Positions 2,541-23,751 of a stretch of 27,135 nucleotides of DNA are shown here, piece after piece. The DNA lies in IMG/VR virus record IMGVR_UViG_3300009375_000026, positions 1 to 27,135 of that record; one strand, 5' to 3'. Position 1 is the stretch's first letter, and every line of letters starts with the position of its first letter. This stretch comes from a virus. A program made the translations under genes and the position numbers. The notes beneath the pieces were generated by a model. The model searched no databases and had not been told where the DNA came from. It saw only the letters and a list, made by a program, of their open reading frames with translations.

Positions 2541-2729
2541 ATGAAGAAAAAACTAAGATATAACTTTACATTAGATAAAGATTTAATGGAATGGTTTAAA
2601 TACTGGTGTAAGCAAAACCGAGTATCTTGTTCTTCGGTTTTAAATCAACAGATTTTTAAGATGTATAATGATTCAAATAGTAATCAAAACAGACCGAAGA
2701 TGCCATCAGTCTCTACTAAAACGAACTGA
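2541..2729 (+). CDS. Small ribbon-helix-helix-like DNA-binding protein
   Basis: A 62-residue protein on the plus strand, opposite to nearly all other genes. I use the ATG at 2541 because AGGAAG lies 5-10 nt upstream; an in-frame GTG at 2523 has no ribosome site. Residues 6-13 (RYNFTLDK) look like the beta strand of an Arc/MetJ-type fold, followed by two helices joined by a turn (EWFKYWCKQNRVSCSSVLNQ). The C-terminal 20 residues are polar and probably disordered. Possible sigma70-like elements TTGAAA (2489) and TATATA (2511) precede it with a 16-nt gap. Its 3' end overlaps the convergent nuclease gene by 24 nt. Inferred role: transcription regulator, possibly of the flanking genes. The fold is a judgement from pattern only. 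Confidence 0.6.
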   Translation: MKKKLRYNFTLDKDLMEWFKYWCKQNRVSCSSVLNQQIFKMYNDSNSNQNRPKMPSVSTKTN

Positions 2730-5700
2730 ACTCAAACCACTAACTTTTTTAATCTCTAATAAAGTATCTACAAAATCTCTCATAGATTCAATATGAGAAA
2801 CAACTAATGAAAACTGAAATTGTGATTTCAAGTATTGGAATAGTTGAGCAACTGAATTTAGATTCTCTGAATCCATTGTTCCCCATCCCTCATCAATTGC
2901 TAAGAAATTACTTCGTGGTAAATTACTAACATTCATTAAACCAACTCTTATTGCAAGAGAACTAATAAATCGTTCCATACCACTTGATAATTCTAATGGC
3001 CATACTCTATCGTCATCATATACAATATGAGTATCAATAACTTTACCATCCATATTAAACACAATACTAAAGTCAACTATTTGAGCCAAGATATCATTTA
3101 CTGCACCCTCAACGGTTGGTAATGATTTACTGATTAAATCATAAGGAACACCATCTCGTTTAATTGCTTCTAATAGATATTGATATGCTTGATGTGAATC
3201 TTCAAGTTCTTCTACTTTATTAATATTATCATTAATTTGTTTTTCGTTAGTTCTCAATACTTGAATCTCACCATGTAATGTAGTTAGTTTTTTACTAACC
3301 ATATCTAATTGATAATCTAAATCATCTTGATTATTTTGTAGTTTTTCTATTTCTATTTCTACTTGTGAATTAAACATTACATCTTGTTCTTGTGATTTTG
3401 ATTTTGATATATCACTTGTTATTAAATTCAATTGATTCTGTATATTAGATTTCTTTTCTTTCATCAATTTAATATCTGAACTAACTCGTGATTCATACAT
3501 TTCTTTTTGATTATATTGTTCTGTTAATTCATCTAAATCTTTTTTAAATGCACGAACCTTAAATCGTTTCTGAATCTCGTCTTCCATATTTTGTTTTTTA
3601 CTTACATAATCTTGAGCAAGTAATTTATCTTTATTGAGATTCTTTTTAGTCTCTATAGCATCCAATGTAAATGGATTACTCATACAATCATCACAATCTT
3701 CATCATAAGTTAAATCACCAAGTTTTTCAATCTTATCCAATTTAACTCTAACTTCAGATTTAAGTTTATCAATTTCAATTTGAAATAAGTCTCGTTCTTC
3801 CTCAAGTTTTTCTAATTCATAATACTTGTCTTGAACACCATCTCTTTTATAACTTGATATCTTCTTAGTAATATCTTCTATTGCTTTTTGTAAATCATAT
3901 TCTTCAACTTTTAATTCGTCAAGTTTTAAATTCACATTACCAAATATACCTTTAAGTTTTTTCTCTTCTTCTCTCAAATCTTCAATATCTCTCAAACTAT
4001 CATCAACTGGTTTTAATCGTAATGTTTCTTCTTTTATTTCTGATAATATTTCTTTAATTGATTTTTTTAAGATTCGTTCATCTTTTTTGAAATCTTTTTG
4101 TTTTGCTGTTAACAAAATCAAATCATTTGTTATTTGTGCTAACTCACTATCATAATCAGATTTCTTAAAGTCTTTTAATAGTGTATCCACTTCTTTGATA
4201 TCTTCTGCTGCTTGTGTATACAATTTATCAAATATCTTCAATCCCATAAACTGAGATAATAACTCTTTTCGTTCTTTTTGAGTTTTGTCAATAAATACAG
4301 TTGAGTTATTTTGTGAACTCATTGAAGTTAAAATAAAATCATCATAACTACCAATTACTTTTTGAATATTCTTTTGTGTAGTTCTTCTTTGGTCTCCATT
4401 TAATGATATTTCTTCACCTGTATCATCTACCATCCAAAAGTCAATATCAACTTTAACATGACCTGTTCTTAAATTCTTCTTACCTCGTTTCTCAATATAA
4501 TAATCTATACCATCTATCTCAAAATTAACTCTACAATGTAAATTAGATTTTGAATTATTAATAATTTTATCTGCCTTATATGCTCGAGAACTCATATCAA
4601 ATAAGTTAAAACATAGAGCATCTAATAGTCCCGATTTACCTGCAGCATTAGGTGCAAATAATCCAATCATTCCATTTAGTTTTGTAAAATCTACAACATT
4701 ATCTTCACCATAACTAAACAAATTACTAAATTCAAATTTCTTTAATTTCCAATGTACATTTCGTTGAACATCTGCTTCTGGTATAACTGCATTTAAATCA
4801 GTAAGTACTTTTTTTATTTTTATCATGGTGTCATCATCCACAATATAATTGTTACTTAAATACTCACTAATTAATTTATATTGATAATCTACACTATTAA
4901 CATCTCCAATATTAATTTTCTTATCACGAATCTTTTCCGTTGATAATCCATCTACTCTCGTAACAACTGATTCTTGGATTTTAGTCATTTTCTGTAGTTT
5001 AGTTAGTAATCGTTTTAATTGAGCAGGTTTTGTATTACTTACCCTAATACGAACTCGTGGTTTATTTGGTAAGTTTGGTAATTCTGGTAATTTACCATTA
5101 TCTATATCAATTGTATAATAACCAAAATCATTGTGTATTTCTACATATTCGGATTTTCTATTTGGTACATCCCATAGTAAATAACCTTTACCAATATCTT
5201 CACCATGATTTTGTTGTACTAATGAACCACAATAAGAAATTGTTTCTTCTTTATTCAAATGTTGTCTTTTGTGTATATCACCAAGTAATCCTAAATCATA
5301 TCCTTTGAACATTGACATCTTAACTTTACTTGGTAGTTTGAATCCTAAATCAGTTTCACTTCTATCTACCGTTCCATGAAACAATACAACTTTAGTTCTA
5401 TCACCTGGAACATCTTTTGCTTTAATATAATCTTTTTCTTTATCCCAAACATCCCATACGATAAAATCCGTATCAGCACAAGTATATATTCCTGTTCTTT
5501 TTAGATAGTGTAAATTAGGATGATTTAAATTTTCTACAATTGGTGTTAAACAATCTAAACGATTTAAATTATTTAGATTACAATCGTGATTACCTGCAAT
5601 AATAATTGTAGGTACGATATCAGATAAGTTTTTAAATAACCTTGATAACTGGTCAATCAACTCAGGAGACATTTCTGTCTTACTATGAGCAATATCACCA

Positions 5701-5864
5701 CCAATATAGGCAACTGCATTCTTAGGATATTTTTTTACTTCCTTATATAGATTATTGAATACTTCTTCGTATTCTCTGTGTCGTTTTAGATTTCTGATTT
5801 GTATATCAGATATGTGATGTATGTGTTTTAATTTCCTAAAAGGAACTTTTATTTTATTTTCCAT
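2706..5864 (-). CDS. Mre11-Rad50 (SbcD-SbcC, T4 gp47-gp46) single-chain fusion nuclease
   Basis: This 1052-residue protein joins both subunits of the recombination nuclease that in T4 are separate genes 47 and 46. Residues 15-200 hold the phosphoesterase motifs: SDIQ (D20), GGDIAH (D57, H60), GNHD (N92-D94), HGT (H163) and GDIH (D196, H198). Residues 372-570 begin the ABC ATPase, with Walker A at 401-411 (GLFAPNAAGKS). Two long coiled-coil arms flank a CDDC zinc hook (C724, C727). The signature LSSGM is at 959-963, Walker B FLAIDE at 987-992 and the H-loop at H1024. Its role in the family is end resection and recombination-dependent replication. In motif I the usual metal-binding His of DxH is Gln22. 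It overlaps the primase gene by 11 nt, so translation is probably coupled. A sequencing-error fusion is unlikely because the reading frame is continuous through the linker. Confidence 0.92.
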   Translation of the reverse strand: MENKIKVPFRKLKHIHHISDIQIRNLKRHREYEEVFNNLYKEVKKYPKNAVAYIGGDIAHSKTEMSPELIDQLSRLFKNLSDIVPTIIIAGNHDCNLNNLNRLDCLTPIVENLNHPNLHYLKRTGIYTCADTDFIVWDVWDKEKDYIKAKDVPGDRTKVVLFHGTVDRSETDLGFKLPSKVKMSMFKGYDLGLLGDIHKRQHLNKEETISYCGSLVQQNHGEDIGKGYLLWDVPNRKSEYVEIHNDFGYYTIDIDNGKLPELPNLPNKPRVRIRVSNTKPAQLKRLLTKLQKMTKIQESVVTRVDGLSTEKIRDKKINIGDVNSVDYQYKLISEYLSNNYIVDDDTMIKIKKVLTDLNAVIPEADVQRNVHWKLKKFEFSNLFSYGEDNVVDFTKLNGMIGLFAPNAAGKSGLLDALCFNLFDMSSRAYKADKIINNSKSNLHCRVNFEIDGIDYYIEKRGKKNLRTGHVKVDIDFWMVDDTGEEISLNGDQRRTTQKNIQKVIGSYDDFILTSMSSQNNSTVFIDKTQKERKELLSQFMGLKIFDKLYTQAAEDIKEVDTLLKDFKKSDYDSELAQITNDLILLTAKQKDFKKDERILKKSIKEILSEIKEETLRLKPVDDSLRDIEDLREEEKKLKGIFGNVNLKLDELKVEEYDLQKAIEDITKKISSYKRDGVQDKYYELEKLEEERDLFQIEIDKLKSEVRVKLDKIEKLGDLTYDEDCDDCMSNPFTLDAIETKKNLNKDKLLAQDYVSKKQNMEDEIQKRFKVRAFKKDLDELTEQYNQKEMYESRVSSDIKLMKEKKSNIQNQLNLITSDISKSKSQEQDVMFNSQVEIEIEKLQNNQDDLDYQLDMVSKKLTTLHGEIQVLRTNEKQINDNINKVEELEDSHQAYQYLLEAIKRDGVPYDLISKSLPTVEGAVNDILAQIVDFSIVFNMDGKVIDTHIVYDDDRVWPLELSSGMERFISSLAIRVGLMNVSNLPRSNFLAIDEGWGTMDSENLNSVAQLFQYLKSQFQFSLVVSHIESMRDFVDTLLEIKKVSGLSSVRFSRD

Positions 5865-14892: not shown

Positions 14893-17800
14893 TTATTCAA
14901 CTTTAAGTTTAGAATCACCAGGTTCTTGAGTTACAAGTTTAGTTGGTGATGTTATAGTTATCTCGACAGGTTCTTTTCCATCAATTGTATTTTTCTTTGT
15001 TAATAATTGACCTTTATAAAAAAGTCTAAAAAGCTTTGAGTCATATGCCATACTCTGGTATTCCGCTGGTTCAAATGATGAACTAAATGAATTATCTTGA
15101 AATGCATCTAACGAACTCGTATAATTCTTGTATTTTATTTCATTGTGTTCTGATATCCTTGAAGAACTAATAAATGGTTGTAATGTTTCAGTAAATACTC
15201 TGGATACAGCTCCTTGTGAAGTACTTGCTGTTGCATATGTGGCACCAAATTCAGTTCGTGGGTCTATCTCTCCCAATCTAACTAATGATGGTAATGCTAA
15301 TGTTCCAAGTGAACCTGATTCATTATTATGTACATTTAAAACTCCCTCATAGTTTGGATATTCCCCAGTAATAACTATCAACCTATCATCAGAACCACTT
15401 ATAAAATTAGTCATATTTATTCCATAACCAAAATGGTCTGCATTCTCAAAATATTGATTATCAAATTCTGGAATTTTACCAACAACCGCTTTACTTCTTT
15501 CTAAAATATTTGGTTCAATCAATACACCAAGAGTTGTGTTTGCTCTTGCAGGTGATAGTTTTCTAAGTTGAGTCCAAATACCACTATCATAAAAATCTAT
15601 AATTCTTAAATAATCCCAAAAACTATTTGTTTTTGAATATTTTTTCCAATACTTTCTTTGTGTATGTTCTAATCCACGATAACTATCTTCATAAACATCT
15701 CGTGGGTCTCCAACCAAATCATTAAAATCAAAATCCGCTATGGAATACATTATATCTTCATTCACCACATCAGTCGGTGAAAAGTAAACACCAAGTTTAT
15801 TACTATCTATTGGTGCAAAATCTTGTGAAGATTGTTCTCTCCTAATATTAGATGATAGTGGGCCGTTTAAACTTGTTCCCTCTAATCTTATCTTGGTTGC
15901 ATTTCTTCTACTCGGACCGAGATTTGGAACTCTTAATTCTTCTTTATCTACAAGACTTCTAAATTGATTACCACTAAAACTCTTAGCACTACCAGTTGCA
16001 TTATATGTTTGTGAAAAACTATTATCAGTAAAACTTGAAGTCGAATGTAAAGTTACATTATCATTCAATTGTGTTCTATGTATCAAATTATCAAAGAAAG
16101 ATTCAGTAGTATTTCCATTATATGACTTTGGTGCCTTTACATGATTCTCAAATACACTTTGTGATAATGGTTCACTCCATAATCTAAACTCCATTACAGA
16201 ACCACTAAGTTGTGTTGCATAAAAACCAGTTCCACTTCCACCAATACTTAATGTACCATCTGCAGAAAATTTAGCATTTGTAGCTGCAGTATTTGTTGAA
16301 AAACTTTGACTATCTTTAAATAAAACTACTTCCCTACTTGAATCATATTGTTTTGTTGTTAATTCATATTTTATATTTTGTGAAGTTGTATCTGCAGTCA
16401 AGTCAGCTCCACTTGCTAATTTTCTCGTCAACATAACACTCCACATCTCATCATTATAAACTGGTAATAAAGATGAAGTAACAAATTCAAGAGAACTACC
16501 ACTAATAGCAAATTCTAAATATCCATAATCATCAGTTGCTCCATTGTCTTGTAATGATATTGCCCAATTAGTTCCTTGATTCAATATAACTTGGTCTTTT
16601 GATTTTGGACTTCTAAATCTAAGTTCTACTGTTTCAGGTTTTATTCCACTCGTTCCATCATCTTTCCATTCCACATCAACATACTCTGAAGATTTAAAGT
16701 CTAATGCATATGTAAACTTTCTCTTTACCTCGTGTGTAACTCTCGTTCCTTTATCAGGACCACCATATTCTCTAATTCTTAATATTGAACTTGGAATACC
16801 ATAACAATTTAACAATCCTTTCATTGCTCTCATAGTACCTTTTGTTTTCATAAAGTACGGCATATTTGCTAAAATTCTTTTCCATATTTCTTCGGTTACT
16901 TGTTCTTGTGGTGATTCATACTTTGAAGTACCATCTGGGTTTTTACCCAACAAATAATTTGGTAGTATCATTAAATCATTACCCTGAACTACACTAAATC
17001 CCATAGTTTTTGCAACTTCCCTTACAATATCTTTTGAAATACCCTCTGATAATTTATTCGTTCTTTCATTCATATCTGTAAAGTGTCTCAAGTAAACAAA
17101 TATCTCATCAAATTGTTGTCCTATCATATCCATAAAATCTAAGAATACATTATTTTCAGTATCGGTTGTTATATGAAGTGGTAAATTATTTACTAATCTA
17201 TTTCCATTTCTTTCATCATAATTTTTTGCATACCCACCAAATGTACTATACCAATCTGTTGCTGCTGAACCTGAAGTATGAACTAATGTATATGGTGAAG
17301 TTGAATTTTCTTTTGGCCAACTAGCAGAATAAAATTCTCCAACTGAACTTGTGGCATATGATGAACTTTCAAAATATAAATAATGTTCATAAGGATCAAA
17401 ACTATTTATTACTCTTCGTTTTTTAGCATTAAATGCTCCAACTGTTTTCTCTGAACCCGTTACATTCCCAAACGATAAACTTGATGAAGTATATAATTCA
17501 ATTAACTCTAATTTCTTTTTAAAATTATCAATTCTTTTTTCAGCACTACTGAAGTGTGCAAAATTACTAAACCCATAATCTGAAATATCTTTTCCAAATA
17601 CATCTTTTCTTTTAGAATAATCAACATTAACTTGAGTATCAAGTAAACTTTGAGAAACTAATTTGTTTTGAATATCTTCTTGTACACTTGAATCAGTACC
17701 TATCAATTGAGTATAATTATTAAATTTTGTTCCTCTAAAATTTATAGGATTATTAGTTGAATTAAAATCTGGTAATCTTAAAAATAATATCTCATGGTCT

Positions 17801-19671
17801 TCCTCATTAAATGGAACTAAGGTAATGGTATCTTCGTATGGCTCCATTTTCTCTTCTACGAAATAACATAAATCCATTTCTTCCGTTTCATCAGTTACTT
17901 TATCATACAACTTTACTAATCTTGAAGTCTCTTGTCCATATGGATTTTTTAAATAATTAAGTACTAAATGATAATTTCCATTACAAACCATATAAGTATT
18001 TAATCGTTCAATTTGTCCTTTTTTAAATTTAACAAAACACTCATCAAATATTGATTTTGAGTTATCTTCACCACTATGTTCAAATTTATTTGCACCCTCT
18101 TCATATGATGTATCAACTCTAATTCTATTATTATCCAACACCTCAACAATTGTTCCAACATAATCAATTGGTATTTCAATTGTTGGTTCTGGTATTGGAA
18201 CAGATGGTACTTCAGGAGCTGCCTGACTCACTGCTATTGTCGTTCTAATATTTTCTGGAGTTACACTTGGTGGTGGGTCATTAACTACAACTTCATTATT
18301 AGCAATATATGGTGTACTATAAGTCATTCCCTCATCATCGCGACCTAAATTATCGTCTTCCTCATCAAAGGTTCTCAACATAGTGATTTGTTTTTCTCTC
18401 CACATTTCAAACTTCTTCATTGATTCCCACTTACCAAGAGTAGCACAAACAACATTGTTTGCAACTATTGTGTGGTGTTTATCAAGAATTAAATTATAAA
18501 CATTAAGTGGTTTAGATTCAAACAACTTACCAATCTCATGAGCCTTATACCATTTACCACGATACTTCATTGGATGGTTATCTGTAGTTATTAGATTCTT
18601 AAATTTAGAAAGTGTATCACCGTATGGTCTTTCATCTTTAATTAATTTTAATATTTTTGCATAACCAATTTCTGTTTTGACTTTCATTCCTTGTCTTAGA
18701 TATTTTATTGGAACTTGTCTACCATTACTTAATTTTACTTTTGTATCTCCTGTAAAACAAACACCTGAAAATCTATCGTATTTTTCCATACCTCGTTCTT
18801 CTTCATCTGCAGCTCTTTCTTGAATCTGTTCATCTACAGATGGTTGTTCTTCTCCTGTAGTTACACCAGCAAAAATATCTATATTTGACAAATCTTCTGG
18901 GGTAAAAATTGGTGGAAGTTCTACAGGTACAATATTTTCTAAAATCTGTTGTCCAGTAACACTATACATACCTTTAATTGTTATTTGTCCACCAACCATT
19001 GCATCACTAAAACCTGGTTCTTTATCATGTGGTGTTAATATCAAAATATTAGGGTCTGTTAAATCAAATCTTATTTTACCTGAAGTAGAATTTGTAAGTG
19101 GTGTATAAGTCATCCATGAATTTATTTCTTTTATTCTTTTTCTATAAAGTGAATTTTGAATATTTTGAGTATCTACTTCAACTTCTGATTTATCGGCTGA
19201 TATTTTCTTTACAACATATTTTAATTCTTTTGCAAATATTTCTTTTAATTCTTGTCTTGATTGTCTTTTACCAAATTTTTTAGTTGAAAAATATTTAGTT
19301 TTACCATTAATAACTTTTGTTTGAACTTTACCAACATGAACCTCACCAAACTCATTTACAAATACAGTTTGTTGTTTACCAGCAAGTCTTTTTAAAAATA
19401 AATACTTAACTTTATAAGTACCTTCTGTGAAACCCATTTCTCGTAGGTGGCCACCAATATCTAAATCAACTTTTCTATCATCTGGAAATATATCTCCTGT
19501 AGGAAATATTTCATCACCAACTAATACATCGTTTTCATCAGTAGTTAAGTCGTCTGATTGATAAACATAGATATGAATATAATCTTCACCTCGTCTACCA
19601 AATCCAGAAGGCAGAAATCCAGGAAGTTCTAATTGTTCTTTATCTTTTTGATTTAATCCATATTGTAACAT
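14893..19671 (-). CDS. gp7/gpI-like baseplate wedge protein with embedded Hint and LamG-like domains
   Basis: A 1592-residue protein. The N-terminus (1-260) is beta-rich and starts in a TAATG overlap with the previous gene. Residues 305-413 form a Hint domain (described separately). Residues about 850-970 resemble the P2 gpI/T4 gp7 wedge core, with helices ending in MPYFMKTKGTMRAMKGLLNC and YGIPSSILRIREYGG, the usual KGT-x-x-A pattern. Residues 985-1180 look like a LamG/concanavalin sandwich (YVDVEWKDD, ELRFRSPKS, MEFRLWSEPLSQ). The C-terminal 400 residues are extended and Ser-rich. The order gp25-gp6-[two genes]-this protein fits the T4 wedge genes 25-6-7. In T4, gp7 is about 1030 residues, so this one is larger through insertions. 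Role: wedge ring of the baseplate, with possible surface binding by the LamG-like part. Confidence 0.8.
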   Translation of the reverse strand: MLQYGLNQKDKEQLELPGFLPSGFGRRGEDYIHIYVYQSDDLTTDENDVLVGDEIFPTGDIFPDDRKVDLDIGGHLREMGFTEGTYKVKYLFLKRLAGKQQTVFVNEFGEVHVGKVQTKVINGKTKYFSTKKFGKRQSRQELKEIFAKELKYVVKKISADKSEVEVDTQNIQNSLYRKRIKEINSWMTYTPLTNSTSGKIRFDLTDPNILILTPHDKEPGFSDAMVGGQITIKGMYSVTGQQILENIVPVELPPIFTPEDLSNIDIFAGVTTGEEQPSVDEQIQERAADEEERGMEKYDRFSGVCFTGDTKVKLSNGRQVPIKYLRQGMKVKTEIGYAKILKLIKDERPYGDTLSKFKNLITTDNHPMKYRGKWYKAHEIGKLFESKPLNVYNLILDKHHTIVANNVVCATLGKWESMKKFEMWREKQITMLRTFDEEDDNLGRDDEGMTYSTPYIANNEVVVNDPPPSVTPENIRTTIAVSQAAPEVPSVPIPEPTIEIPIDYVGTIVEVLDNNRIRVDTSYEEGANKFEHSGEDNSKSIFDECFVKFKKGQIERLNTYMVCNGNYHLVLNYLKNPYGQETSRLVKLYDKVTDETEEMDLCYFVEEKMEPYEDTITLVPFNEEDHEILFLRLPDFNSTNNPINFRGTKFNNYTQLIGTDSSVQEDIQNKLVSQSLLDTQVNVDYSKRKDVFGKDISDYGFSNFAHFSSAEKRIDNFKKKLELIELYTSSSLSFGNVTGSEKTVGAFNAKKRRVINSFDPYEHYLYFESSSYATSSVGEFYSASWPKENSTSPYTLVHTSGSAATDWYSTFGGYAKNYDERNGNRLVNNLPLHITTDTENNVFLDFMDMIGQQFDEIFVYLRHFTDMNERTNKLSEGISKDIVREVAKTMGFSVVQGNDLMILPNYLLGKNPDGTSKYESPQEQVTEEIWKRILANMPYFMKTKGTMRAMKGLLNCYGIPSSILRIREYGGPDKGTRVTHEVKRKFTYALDFKSSEYVDVEWKDDGTSGIKPETVELRFRSPKSKDQVILNQGTNWAISLQDNGATDDYGYLEFAISGSSLEFVTSSLLPVYNDEMWSVMLTRKLASGADLTADTTSQNIKYELTTKQYDSSREVVLFKDSQSFSTNTAATNAKFSADGTLSIGGSGTGFYATQLSGSVMEFRLWSEPLSQSVFENHVKAPKSYNGNTTESFFDNLIHRTQLNDNVTLHSTSSFTDNSFSQTYNATGSAKSFSGNQFRSLVDKEELRVPNLGPSRRNATKIRLEGTSLNGPLSSNIRREQSSQDFAPIDSNKLGVYFSPTDVVNEDIMYSIADFDFNDLVGDPRDVYEDSYRGLEHTQRKYWKKYSKTNSFWDYLRIIDFYDSGIWTQLRKLSPARANTTLGVLIEPNILERSKAVVGKIPEFDNQYFENADHFGYGINMTNFISGSDDRLIVITGEYPNYEGVLNVHNNESGSLGTLALPSLVRLGEIDPRTEFGATYATASTSQGAVSRVFTETLQPFISSSRISEHNEIKYKNYTSSLDAFQDNSFSSSFEPAEYQSMAYDSKLFRLFYKGQLLTKKNTIDGKEPVEITITSPTKLVTQEPGDSKLKVE
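18433..18759 (-). other. Hint (hedgehog/intein) autoprocessing domain inside the wedge protein
   Basis: Residues 305-413 of the wedge protein. Block A is C305-FTGDTKVKLSNGRQVPI, with the catalytic first Cys; block B is TTDNHPM with T363 and H366 (TxxH); block F is VYNLILDKHH then TIVANNVVCATLG. There is no homing-endonuclease insert, and the typical terminal His-Asn is replaced by Val-Val-Cys-Ala, so full protein splicing is unlikely; N-terminal thioester chemistry remains possible. Flanks are charged helical stretches (EERGMEKYDRF before, KWESMKKFEMWREKQ after). Confidence 0.85.
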
Positions 19672-20172: not shown

Positions 20173-21351
20173 TTATCTCACCACTTTAAATTCATAACCA
20201 TCATCATATACTATTGAAGATTCATCTGATCCACTCCCACTTACTACTTTAATTTCGAACTTGTAATGTCTTTCTGACTGAAACCCGTCCATCCAAATAT
20301 TAAAATAATTACCTTGTGAATCACAACTAACTATTGAACCTGTTCCAAATGGAACTATCACATCATCAGTTAATGAATCCTTTACTGAATAGTAAGTTCC
20401 ATGTCCAAGTGATTGACTACCACTTGGTAAAAATTTTACAGTTAAAGCTGCAGGTGTTGTATCAAATCCTCTTGTTGGATATAATTCTCTACCTACTAAT
20501 CTGAATTTTACTTTTGATTTTTCTTTATATTCTGGTTTAAGATTTTTAAAATAAACAGTTAAATTATCTAAATCGGTTGAACCCAATTCACTTAAACTTC
20601 CTGTACTCCAAGAACTATCATCCCACTCAACTTCTAACTTTGGTGGAAATATTGTATTTGTTTCTCGTGAGAAAAATTTTAAATGTCCATAGTGTGTAGC
20701 ATCACCTTCAGCCGAACCAGTTGCGGTTGTTGGATCAAATATAGAATACATACTTTGTGATGTTGCTACATTTTCCCTCTTAATAATAAATCCATTATTT
20801 GGAAATACTGAACTTGAATAGATATGATTCTTAACTAAATCACTTACATCCATACGAATATCTGTTGTCTCGTATACTAAATTTTGTGAAGAACTAACTT
20901 CATACTGACTACTGATACTTGATGTGAACCAAGTTCCACCTTGTGTAGTACTACCACTAACCCATTCAGTTTTTGTTGTATCATTATCACGATACTTCCA
21001 ACTTGCTCCATCACTCAATACTGGGTCTCTACTATAATATCCAGTTCCACCTGTCCAACTTCCACTAACAATATATGAATGTAAAGATTGTTCTACTGCT
21101 AATTCACTTGAAGCCGCATCATAAAGATTTATATAAAATTTTGCATCACTTGGAATCACTCCACTCTGTACAGAAGATGAAATGTATCCATAATCAAACT
21201 TCATCAAGATTCGTGATACTCCAACTGTAGTTCCTGTTGAATTAACTTCCTTTCTAACTTCTAATATTTGATCAATTCCTGTATTAATAGAAGAACTTAT
21301 ATTACCTTCATAAATTGTTGAGTCTACTATAGGATATTCAAAATAATACAT
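20173..21351 (-). CDS. DNRLRE-like beta-rich virion structural protein, baseplate-associated
   Basis: A 392-residue protein starting MYYFEYPIVDSTIYEGN, with GGAG 8 nt upstream and a one-base overlap with gp6. Residues 1-240 follow the pattern of DNRLRE-type modules seen in surface proteins: D-S-T-I-Y near the start, then SRILMKFDY, WTGGTGYYS and a long beta segment ending PKLEVEWDD. Residues 250-392 form a second beta domain (LTVYFKNLKPEYKEKSKVKF through FNIWMDGFQSERHYKFEIKV). No catalytic motif is evident. By position, between gp6 and the gp7-like gene, it should belong to the baseplate wedge or bind to it. Function is inferred from context. Confidence 0.75.
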   Translation of the reverse strand: MYYFEYPIVDSTIYEGNISSSINTGIDQILEVRKEVNSTGTTVGVSRILMKFDYGYISSSVQSGVIPSDAKFYINLYDAASSELAVEQSLHSYIVSGSWTGGTGYYSRDPVLSDGASWKYRDNDTTKTEWVSGSTTQGGTWFTSSISSQYEVSSSQNLVYETTDIRMDVSDLVKNHIYSSSVFPNNGFIIKRENVATSQSMYSIFDPTTATGSAEGDATHYGHLKFFSRETNTIFPPKLEVEWDDSSWSTGSLSELGSTDLDNLTVYFKNLKPEYKEKSKVKFRLVGRELYPTRGFDTTPAALTVKFLPSGSQSLGHGTYYSVKDSLTDDVIVPFGTGSIVSCDSQGNYFNIWMDGFQSERHYKFEIKVVSGSGSDESSIVYDDGYEFKVVR

Positions 21352-23315
21352 TATACATCTCCTACTACTCTACCCTGAATATCTGTATTCGGAAATTTTA
21401 ATTCGAAGATACAAGGGTCTAATGATGGATATATTACACCATCTTTTGTTGCTGATTGTAAATCATATACATGGCCACTATATCCACTTTCTGTTTGCCA
21501 TTCATTCTCAATAACTACCATTTGTTTTTGTGGATTATCATCTCCTGGTGGAACTATACTTGCCACACCATCAACTAATGAAATTGCATAAGCAATATCA
21601 CTCAGTATAATTGGTTGTCCAATTTGCCATTTCTTAATATCAAAATATTTCTTAACTGATTCTATTGCCTTTAACAATACTTCATTTTTATTATATCCTC
21701 GTTGAGTAATAATTGAAAATCTACAACTAATATTTACAGTATAAGCATCTTTAATATTAATTGCATCTGTTAAAATTCTATATTGTGATAAATAAGTTTT
21801 TAAATTTTGTTTAACTGCTTGATTTAATGCTACTAAATGTTGATTAGCATCATAACCCAATACATAAAAGTTTAATGCCAATGGATTAGGTAAAGTACTT
21901 ATAGCTGTATTTTTTACAATCTTACCATTCTTAACTATCTCTTTAGTATTTGCTTCTAATTGTTCATCTTGTACAATAAAACATTTAGCAATATTACCAT
22001 ACTTTTGTGGTAATGAATAAACTCTAATAATATAATCTTCTTTAGTAACTGCTCTATTTTGAGAATTAAAATATGCTAATGCATTTTGTCTAACTTCTTC
22101 GTTTGATTCACCACCAGAACCTCCAGTTGCTGGGCCCTCATTAGTAACAATTAAACTTGATTTCATATCACTTACTTTTGCACTATCTAATCCTGTATCA
22201 TCGAATGTCCAACTAACATTATCAAGATTTGTAATTGTACCAGAAAGTGCATTATCTTTAACTGAACCACCATAAGTATAAGTTACAGTCAATGTAGTAT
22301 TACTTGGAGCCAATCCAAATGTTCTTGTCTTTAAAAAATTACTTGGGTCAAATGAATCATCTAATTTACTAACACCCAACGATAACGATGAACCAACATT
22401 ATCTGGATTTGGAATTATCTCCTCATCCGCATTTGCACTAATACCACTACCAAATCTTATTTCTGTTTTACCATCACTACGAACATACTTTGTAAATCTT
22501 TTAGCCGTTTTAATTAACTTTAATAAGAATGGTGATTCCTTTTTATGTGTTGATAAATCAGGACTATTCAAATCAGAATTTTCCATTGAAGCAAAAACAG
22601 TATCTTGAGCCAAAAATGGAACTTCATACCACTTATCTTCTTTACTATCTGTTATTGAGATAATATCAATTATTTTATCATTACTTAAAATCACTTTATC
22701 AAATTTAGTAGAGTTTCCAAATGTAAATTCTTGTGATGTTTTAGTTCCTGATTTACAAATTCCTTTTTTAGTTAATTTAAAATGAGATGGTGTATCATCT
22801 GAATATTGTGAAATCTCTTGTTCCATATCATCTAATGAACTTGATACTTTAAAATTAATATCATCCGTCAATCTAAATGTTATACCATTAGTAGATGAAA
22901 ATGTACTATCACCTGCTAATATTGGTGCATAATCTAAATTTGGTTGATAAGTTTCTCCAACTTGTAATGCAGGAACTTCTACACTAAAATCACATATTGC
23001 TGTGGAAGGACTTGAAAGTTTAGGTTCATATCCAAATGATTGAGCAATTTTATAAATATTTTTCTTTTCTTCTGCTGCATGTAATAATGATTCACGATAT
23101 TGATTATCAACATAAAATGATAATACATCACCAACATATGCTGCCATCTCTATAAACATCATTCCCGGACTTGCCTCATTAAAATCATTATAAGATTTAG
23201 GAAAATAAGATTTTGCAAATTCAATTAAGTTACTTCTTATATCACTAAATTCTCTACCGAGATATTGGACTTCCCTTTTCTCTACTTTTTGATTTGTATT
23301 ATAATCGACAGCCAT
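21351..23315 (-). CDS. 6: Baseplate wedge protein gp6 (gpJ-like)
   Basis: A 654-residue protein matching T4 gp6/P2 gpJ, the wedge component that forms the inner baseplate ring and passes the contraction signal. Family features seen: the N-terminal FPKSYNDFNEASPGMMFIEM helix and AAYVGDVLSFYVDNQYRESL at about 37-73, a variable beta middle, then the baseplate-J core ESNEEVRQNALAYFNSQNRA followed by VTKEDYIIRVYSLPQKYGNI, and a C-terminal part resembling the gp6 dimerisation domain (IKKWQIGQPIILSDIAYAIS-like). T4 gp6 is about 660 residues, so length agrees. AGGAGG precedes the ATG and the gene abuts gp25, as in many contractile tail gene sets. Confidence 0.92.
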   Translation of the reverse strand: MAVDYNTNQKVEKREVQYLGREFSDIRSNLIEFAKSYFPKSYNDFNEASPGMMFIEMAAYVGDVLSFYVDNQYRESLLHAAEEKKNIYKIAQSFGYEPKLSSPSTAICDFSVEVPALQVGETYQPNLDYAPILAGDSTFSSTNGITFRLTDDINFKVSSSLDDMEQEISQYSDDTPSHFKLTKKGICKSGTKTSQEFTFGNSTKFDKVILSNDKIIDIISITDSKEDKWYEVPFLAQDTVFASMENSDLNSPDLSTHKKESPFLLKLIKTAKRFTKYVRSDGKTEIRFGSGISANADEEIIPNPDNVGSSLSLGVSKLDDSFDPSNFLKTRTFGLAPSNTTLTVTYTYGGSVKDNALSGTITNLDNVSWTFDDTGLDSAKVSDMKSSLIVTNEGPATGGSGGESNEEVRQNALAYFNSQNRAVTKEDYIIRVYSLPQKYGNIAKCFIVQDEQLEANTKEIVKNGKIVKNTAISTLPNPLALNFYVLGYDANQHLVALNQAVKQNLKTYLSQYRILTDAINIKDAYTVNISCRFSIITQRGYNKNEVLLKAIESVKKYFDIKKWQIGQPIILSDIAYAISLVDGVASIVPPGDDNPQKQMVVIENEWQTESGYSGHVYDLQSATKDGVIYPSLDPCIFELKFPNTDIQGRVVGDV

Positions 23316-23316
23316 T

Positions 23317-23751
23317 CTATCCTCCTGTATTAAAATTAAATGTCATTGTTTCAAGTGCATCAGGGTCATCTGTATCTACTCTGAACTCAAGAGAAACCGT
23401 TACTTGATTAGGATTGGATTCATCCTGTAAAGTAAAAATATTTTCTGCTGTAATATAAGGTAACCATATTGCTAAAGCTTCTCTAATTGCATTATCAATT
23501 TTTTCTCCAATTGTACCATCAATTGGTTCAAATATAATTGCAGGTAAATCACTACCAAATTCAGGTTGAGATACTCTCTCACCTTTCATTGTTAATAAAA
23601 GATTTTTTATATTAGATGATGCTTGTTCTTTTAATGTTGTTGAGCGGGGAAAAAATCCCTCTCCACCTACTCCATATGTTAATGGAAAGGTACATCCAAA
23701 GAAACTATCTTCGTCATCATTTAATGCTGCTACTGATGGGTTATCTGGCAT
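23317..23751 (-). CDS. 25: Baseplate wedge protein gp25 (GPW/gp25 family)
   Basis: A 144-residue protein with the family signature at about 47-78: IKNLLLTMKGERVSQPEFGS then DLPAIIFEPID. It forms the core bundle of the wedge with gp6 and gp7 and contacts the sheath. It starts in a TAATG one-base overlap with the previous gene and ends just before gp6. An N-terminal extension of about 30 residues (DNPSVAALNDDEDSFFGCTF) exceeds the shortest family members; T4 gp25 is 132 residues. No lysozyme activity is expected despite the old family name. Confidence 0.92.
   Translation of the reverse strand: MPDNPSVAALNDDEDSFFGCTFPLTYGVGGEGFFPRSTTLKEQASSNIKNLLLTMKGERVSQPEFGSDLPAIIFEPIDGTIGEKIDNAIREALAIWLPYITAENIFTLQDESNPNQVTVSLEFRVDTDDPDALETMTFNFNTGG

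Follow-up and report, generated by a model that had tools for sequence, protein, structure and literature searches.

Gene order and layout of the Hint-bearing protein

The window analysed here is the whole of a 27,135-nucleotide stretch of viral DNA (positions 1 to 27,135 of IMG/VR virus record IMGVR_UViG_3300009375_000026). Positions 14893 to 19671 on its minus strand encode a large protein of 1592 amino acids that carries a Hint domain and that we refer to, from its open reading frame and gene order, as a baseplate-cluster protein. It is the third gene after that of a gp6-like baseplate wedge protein (21351 to 23315, minus strand; phrog_6, E 6.1e-27), the product of which also scores 20.8 bits with Pfam Baseplate_J, slightly below the cut-off of 21.1. 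A second baseplate wedge subunit, presumably gp25-like, is encoded at 23317 to 23751 on the same strand (phrog_261, E 2.3e-18). It is only the gene order beside these wedge genes that speaks for the label and for a baseplate role. Elsewhere in the window, positions 2706 to 5864 (minus strand) hold an open reading frame of 1052 amino acids with a Metallophos match at the N-terminal end and SMC_N/SbcC-like matches further on; the predicted product is a fused SbcD-SbcC-type nuclease, which we take to be T4 gp47-gp46-like.

The preliminary description of this locus called the large protein gp7/gpI-like. The gene order agrees with that proposal as far as a baseplate role is concerned, but profile kinship was not detected, as hhalign comparisons of alignments A2 and A4 with T4 gp7 and of A2 with P2 gpI, all against single-sequence targets, gave probabilities of at most 0.2%. 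The order also differs in detail, since in T4 and P2 the gp7/gpI gene directly follows the gp6/J-like gene. The 1592-residue protein had no PHROG match at E 0.001 and matched no Pfam tail family at E 1; among relatives that do not carry the Hint domain (Hint-less relatives), four were compared with the tail PHROGs at E 0.1 and three of these with the Pfam tail families at E 5, in both cases with no match. Comparison of the core profile with the PDB returned no relevant chain. A model of 1010 residues had a mean pLDDT of 58.6, was poor outside the N-domain, the Hint domain and the D2 domain, and fell below 50 at residues 821-1010; all 50 matches listed in each structure search with this model were Hint folds.

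The protein is laid out as an N-domain (residues 1-241; 18949 to 19671), a variable site, a D2 domain (residues 503-620; 17812 to 18165) and the rest, which includes a conserved core (residues 807-1004; 16659 to 17253) that was the query for Hint-less relatives; these and the following features are all on the minus strand. The variable site comprises a hypervariable linker of low identity and low pLDDT (residues 242-298; 18778 to 18948), a conserved stretch ahead of Cys305 with the pattern D-x-[FY]-[SG]-x-[VT] (residues 299-304; 18760 to 18777), the Vint-type Hint domain (codons 305-413; 18433 to 18759), an invariant K414-W415 with a C-terminal helix (residues 414-435; 18367 to 18432) and a second hypervariable linker (residues 436-502; 18166 to 18366). 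The predicted nucleophile, C305, lies within the Hint domain together with T363/H366 and H400. The residues named in the preliminary description were found exactly where it placed them, with FTGDT running from residue 306 directly after C305, TTDNH from 362 (T363, H366), the block-F-like VYNLILDKHH from 391 and VVCATLG from 407.

Family, predicted fold and C-terminal end of the domain

Vint (PF14623) was the sole Pfam family above its cut-off in the whole 1592-residue protein and matched residues 304-413 with 64.5 bits (E 1.3e-17; cut-off 27). A genome search with Vint gave 69.3 bits, and one of 14 control genomes matched, with none of the 14 above the cut-off. Each of the 22 sequences in alignment A3, that of the window among them, matched Vint at an E limit of 1 (best E 1.6e-21), and the cut-off was also passed by six further virus records. 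The AlphaFold prediction made with A3 for residues 290-445 is a confident Hint fold. Its mean pLDDT is 82; the value is 78 around Cys305 and reaches 84-96, block by block, between residue 310 and the end of the domain. The solved structure nearest to this model is Tetrahymena Vint 8r2c (Z 15.9, 1.9 A over 115 residues), which was also the only significant chain (E 1.5e-7) when the sequence profile was compared with the PDB. The other best structure matches were BIL domains, inteins and hedgehog 1at0 (Z 13.0), the alignment with 1at0 starting with C305 against residue 258 and those with many inteins with C305 against residue 1. The structure search with the 1010-residue model ranked nearly the same structures at the top. 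Vint score and predicted fold both agree with the earlier proposal of a Hint domain, for which a structure prediction had been suggested as a check, and the domain is free of an endonuclease insert as described. The intein features present are the predicted Hint fold, an N-terminal Cys and the TxxH of block B; among the Vint motifs scored, A and B are conserved and there is a little similarity at block F.

The T-x-x-H, the H-T and the C..LG end of 8r2c align with the phage domain, which covers positions 1-114 of the 166 in the Vint profile. The setting differs from that of Vint, as the phage domain is internal to a tail-cluster protein and has no VWA domain upstream (a Pfam scan of all 1592 amino acids at E up to 1 found none). 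At the site of phage Cys305, 8r2c carries Ala, presumably because the construct had been mutated to inactivate it; the paper on this structure (FEBS Letters 2024) is said to suggest ligand-regulated cleavage. The hedgehog C-terminal autoprocessing domain 1at0 has the same Hint fold starting at Cys, and the score of the phage domain with the hedgehog family PF01079 is 15.0 bits, far under the cut-off of 29.7. The bacterial intein-like domain 2lwy and the ciliate BIL2 domain 6y75 likewise have the Hint fold (Z 14.3 and 15.4, respectively). BIL domains of type A are defined by a His-Asn end, which is absent from the phage domain.

At the His-Asn site of inteins, all 65 Hint rows examined have A410-T411-[LM]412. 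The preliminary description was right that the His-Asn and nucleophile end is missing, and because of this splicing is not expected; a splicing intein was rejected as a candidate on the same ground. Its further statement that a splicing C-terminus had been lost is not supported. Nothing need have been lost, since PMC2362128 reports that Vint domains keep mainly motifs A and B together with a little of motif F, and the C..LG end of 8r2c lies at the equivalent place. From these comparisons, Ala-Thr in place of His-Asn looks typical of Vint domains.

Hint domains are already known in viral proteins, and in phage genes as inteins; PMC3556154, PMC5526547 and PMC5259590 treat those in terminase and reductase genes as splicing elements. 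In contrast to the inteins described there, the domain considered here has no splicing end and adjoins wedge genes. Hint-bearing phage and giant-virus proteins in BFVD have the same predicted fold, and none of the 50 matches listed was named a baseplate-cluster protein. In a literature search largely outside subscription journals, none of the papers listed describes a phage baseplate protein with a Hint domain.

Conservation, origin and insertion site

Two Hint scans of IMG/VR gave 53 loci, to which the core scan added three; with the window these represent 57 distinct contigs, some of them near-identical, and eight of the 65 rows examined are repeat fetches. The carriers are a group of uncultured tailed phages with the domain inside the large tail-cluster protein, and with the most distant of these Hint domains as query, only its own contig was matched. 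Invariant in the 65 rows are C305, T363, H366, D397, H400, T401, A410, T411, K414 and W415. C409, the Cys of VVCATLG, is variable (Cys in 23, Ser in 42), and D309 is replaced by Asn in 13 of the 65. The pattern ahead of Cys305, which was picked after viewing 22 rows and then counted, is present in 57 of 57 contigs. Because 40 of the 111 Hint columns are invariant in 22 rows, the four predicted catalytic residues would all be invariant by chance with P about 0.015, which is suggestive only.

The linkers on both sides are hypervariable. Mean pairwise identity among 16 Hint-bearing rows was 15% for residues 242-298, 59% for 299-304, 72% for the Hint domain and 19% for 436-502, and pLDDT in the 1010-residue model was below 50 at residues 242-302, 428-457 and 481-496. 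Nei-Gojobori dN/dS in ten pairs was 0-0.45 for the Hint domain and 0.24-3.2 for the linkers, with the Hint value below that of both linkers in nine of the ten; single values are rough owing to few synonymous sites and to low dS in some pairs. Synonymous divergence of the Hint coding region (18433 to 18759) is low in several pairs (0.13 between the window and L011, where the conserved regions have 0.30-0.50). Recombination or a constraint at the nucleotide level may lie behind this. Frame breaks are present in otherwise normal Hint-bearing genes, near residues 290-299 in L006 and near 864 in L023 and L068, and are likely sequence errors.

The core scan, which is blind to the Hint domain, matched at least 600 stretches, of which 594 were confirmed and the best 80 kept. 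In these best 80 of at least 594 matches, the 12 nearest all have the Hint domain, although the frame of L068 is broken, and the remaining 68 lack it; among the matches listed, all 12 loci of the Hint clade thus carry it. A first tree was built from 88 core sequences, of which 26 have the Hint domain, 55 lack it and seven were left unassigned; on it the Hint rows form one side of one branch, with support of 99/91 and recovery in 98% of 200 bootstrap trees. The 88 were taken from 130 core ORFs by dropping identical rows and those with a joined core match shorter than 170 or longer than 320. As this removed some fused relatives, the tree was repeated quickly with best matches only (94 rows, after 33 identical and three short ones were dropped); on this second tree, built from fewer columns, the Hint domain again requires one change (SH-aLRT 94). 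In the trees the domain looks to have been gained once, inside Hint-less relatives, and then kept. The relatives in named phages, Microcystis phage Mel-JY01 and Flavobacterium phage immuto, are without the Hint domain, as is one in an uncultured phage. A pattern search of genome contigs gave 44 matches and no confirmed relative. The phage collection held no Hint relative at E 1e-3 and, at E up to 10, weak matches only (best 0.02 and 0.2); the separate N-protein had no match there at E 0.1.

Among 71 Hint-less loci, a count that leaves out the Hint-bearing rows L023 and L068 (both broken), L065-L067 and L137, the N-domain and the remainder are encoded by one gene in 40 (fused) and by separate genes in 24 (split), and seven are left unassigned; L106, where the downstream frame is interrupted, is a less certain split. 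The 20 nearest loci (at least 60% core identity to the window) comprise ten of each kind. In split loci an upstream gene of its own encodes the N-domain, and D2 is part of the downstream gene. The N-protein has 299-314 amino acids in the ten nearest split loci, the piece ahead of Cys305 has 268-313 residues in 56 Hint-bearing contigs, and the 14 more distant split loci have a longer N-protein of 319-733 amino acids. In eight of the 24 split loci the stop codon of the first gene shares one base with the start codon of the second, and 0.9-1.1 kb separates the two genes in six. In L125 the intervening stretch is another ORF, and in L071 a separate proline-rich gene of 334 amino acids (3518 to 4522) lies between the N-gene and the downstream gene.

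The flanking domains can also be joined almost directly, as in L081, where the N match runs to residue 202 and D2 starts at 204, which bears out the expectation that the Hint domain is an extra module missing in some homologues. The other fused Hint-less relatives have about 90 to 1270 residues between the two domains, many of those in L093-L135 having several hundred to about 1270, and three proteins with a long insert at the site gave weak Pfam matches only. Weak Laminin_G-like matches below the cut-off follow the conserved core in L069, L071, L088 and L103. Homologues of the gp6-like gene and of a 392-residue neighbour lie upstream in all 27 loci compared, and those of a 166-residue neighbour in 19. 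Split and fused states alternate on the first tree, where seven switches are needed and four are forced by well supported branches; the second tree needs five and forces two. By gene layout and phylogeny, the Hint domain sits at a recurrent fusion/fission point. Likeness between the tails of split N-proteins and the linkers of Hint-bearing proteins does not exceed chance, except in three of 31 fragments, closely related to one another, which beat all 200 shuffles.

Predicted cleavage, its alternatives and their meaning

As the Hint domain occupies the place where related phages split the gene, it probably cuts the protein after synthesis. We consider it reasonably probable that autocleavage at Val304|Cys305 generates two chains for which related phages have a gene each. 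A Vint-type Hint domain fixed in the linker between two domains would most likely stop after the first half of the Hint reaction. Cys305 would attack the Val304 carbonyl in an N-S acyl shift assisted by T363/H366, and the resulting thioester at Val304/Cys305 would be hydrolysed or otherwise resolved. An N-protein of about 304 residues would be freed from a 1288-residue chain that retains the Hint domain at its new N-terminus. Cleavage may be triggered during assembly, and its benefit may be that both chains are supplied in equal amounts and can afterwards separate, as they have to; we infer occurrence, timing and benefit alike. According to PMC7664689, the first Cys opens Hint chemistry through an N-S acyl shift; hedgehog domains use this step only, and BIL domains yield mostly cleaved products. 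A nick at this position is sensible because the product chains are separate genes in relatives. The cleavage reading also draws on the Vint match, the confident fold prediction, the invariant residues and the pattern ahead of Cys305, the low dN/dS of the domain, its single apparent gain, the similar length of the N-proteins in the nearest split loci and the preserved gene order. The preliminary description had proposed that the protein either cleaves itself at Cys305 or attaches its N-terminal part to another molecule; cleavage ahead of Cys305 is the reading to be preferred, and the separate-gene relatives strengthen it, whereas attachment gained no evidence.

The 40 fused Hint-less loci indicate that cutting is not generally required, and because separate chains are not always needed, a silent role or a transfer is possible. 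Also counting against the cleavage reading are the tails of split N-proteins, mostly unlike the linkers, the longer N-proteins of the more distant split loci, Asn in place of D309 in some rows and the smaller number of split/fused switches on the second tree. The Hint domain might be catalytically silent and kept for its fold or a partner, as a structural spacer or binding module. This is unlikely, though it has some weight: Hint-less relatives carry other spacers at the same site, from 1 to more than 1200 residues, and many of the 40 conserved columns have no catalytic role, but the predicted catalytic residues and the stretch ahead of C305 are kept in all 57 contigs. Less probable again is a transfer in which a nucleophile on some molecule of the virion or host takes over the thioester-bound N-terminal 304 residues, in the way that cholesterol accepts the hedgehog signal; this would give a covalent baseplate link. 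The first chemical step would be identical, hedgehog transfer is known (PMC7664689), and the site follows a long linker that is probably flexible; however, no acceptor was identified and split relatives encode a free N-protein. Hedgehog-like ligation in a contractile tail, with a specific acceptor in the virion or on the host surface during assembly or infection, is doubtful to the same degree. That the domain is a decayed mini-intein, either still splicing or being lost, is very improbable. Blocks A, B and F are intein-like and intein structures are close fold matches, yet neither His-Asn nor a +1 nucleophile is present (Ala-Thr in 65 of 65 rows), dN/dS is well below 1, inheritance is vertical and the nearest family is Vint.

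If the protein is indeed cleaved, then a tail-cluster protein has taken on a Hint domain as a fixed device for its maturation, and gene fission would be carried out at the protein level. Vint domains would gain a setting with a clear product prediction. Related phages with one uncut gene, with separate genes or with the Hint domain are natural controls, so that the benefit to a phage tail of cutting one protein in two is directly testable.
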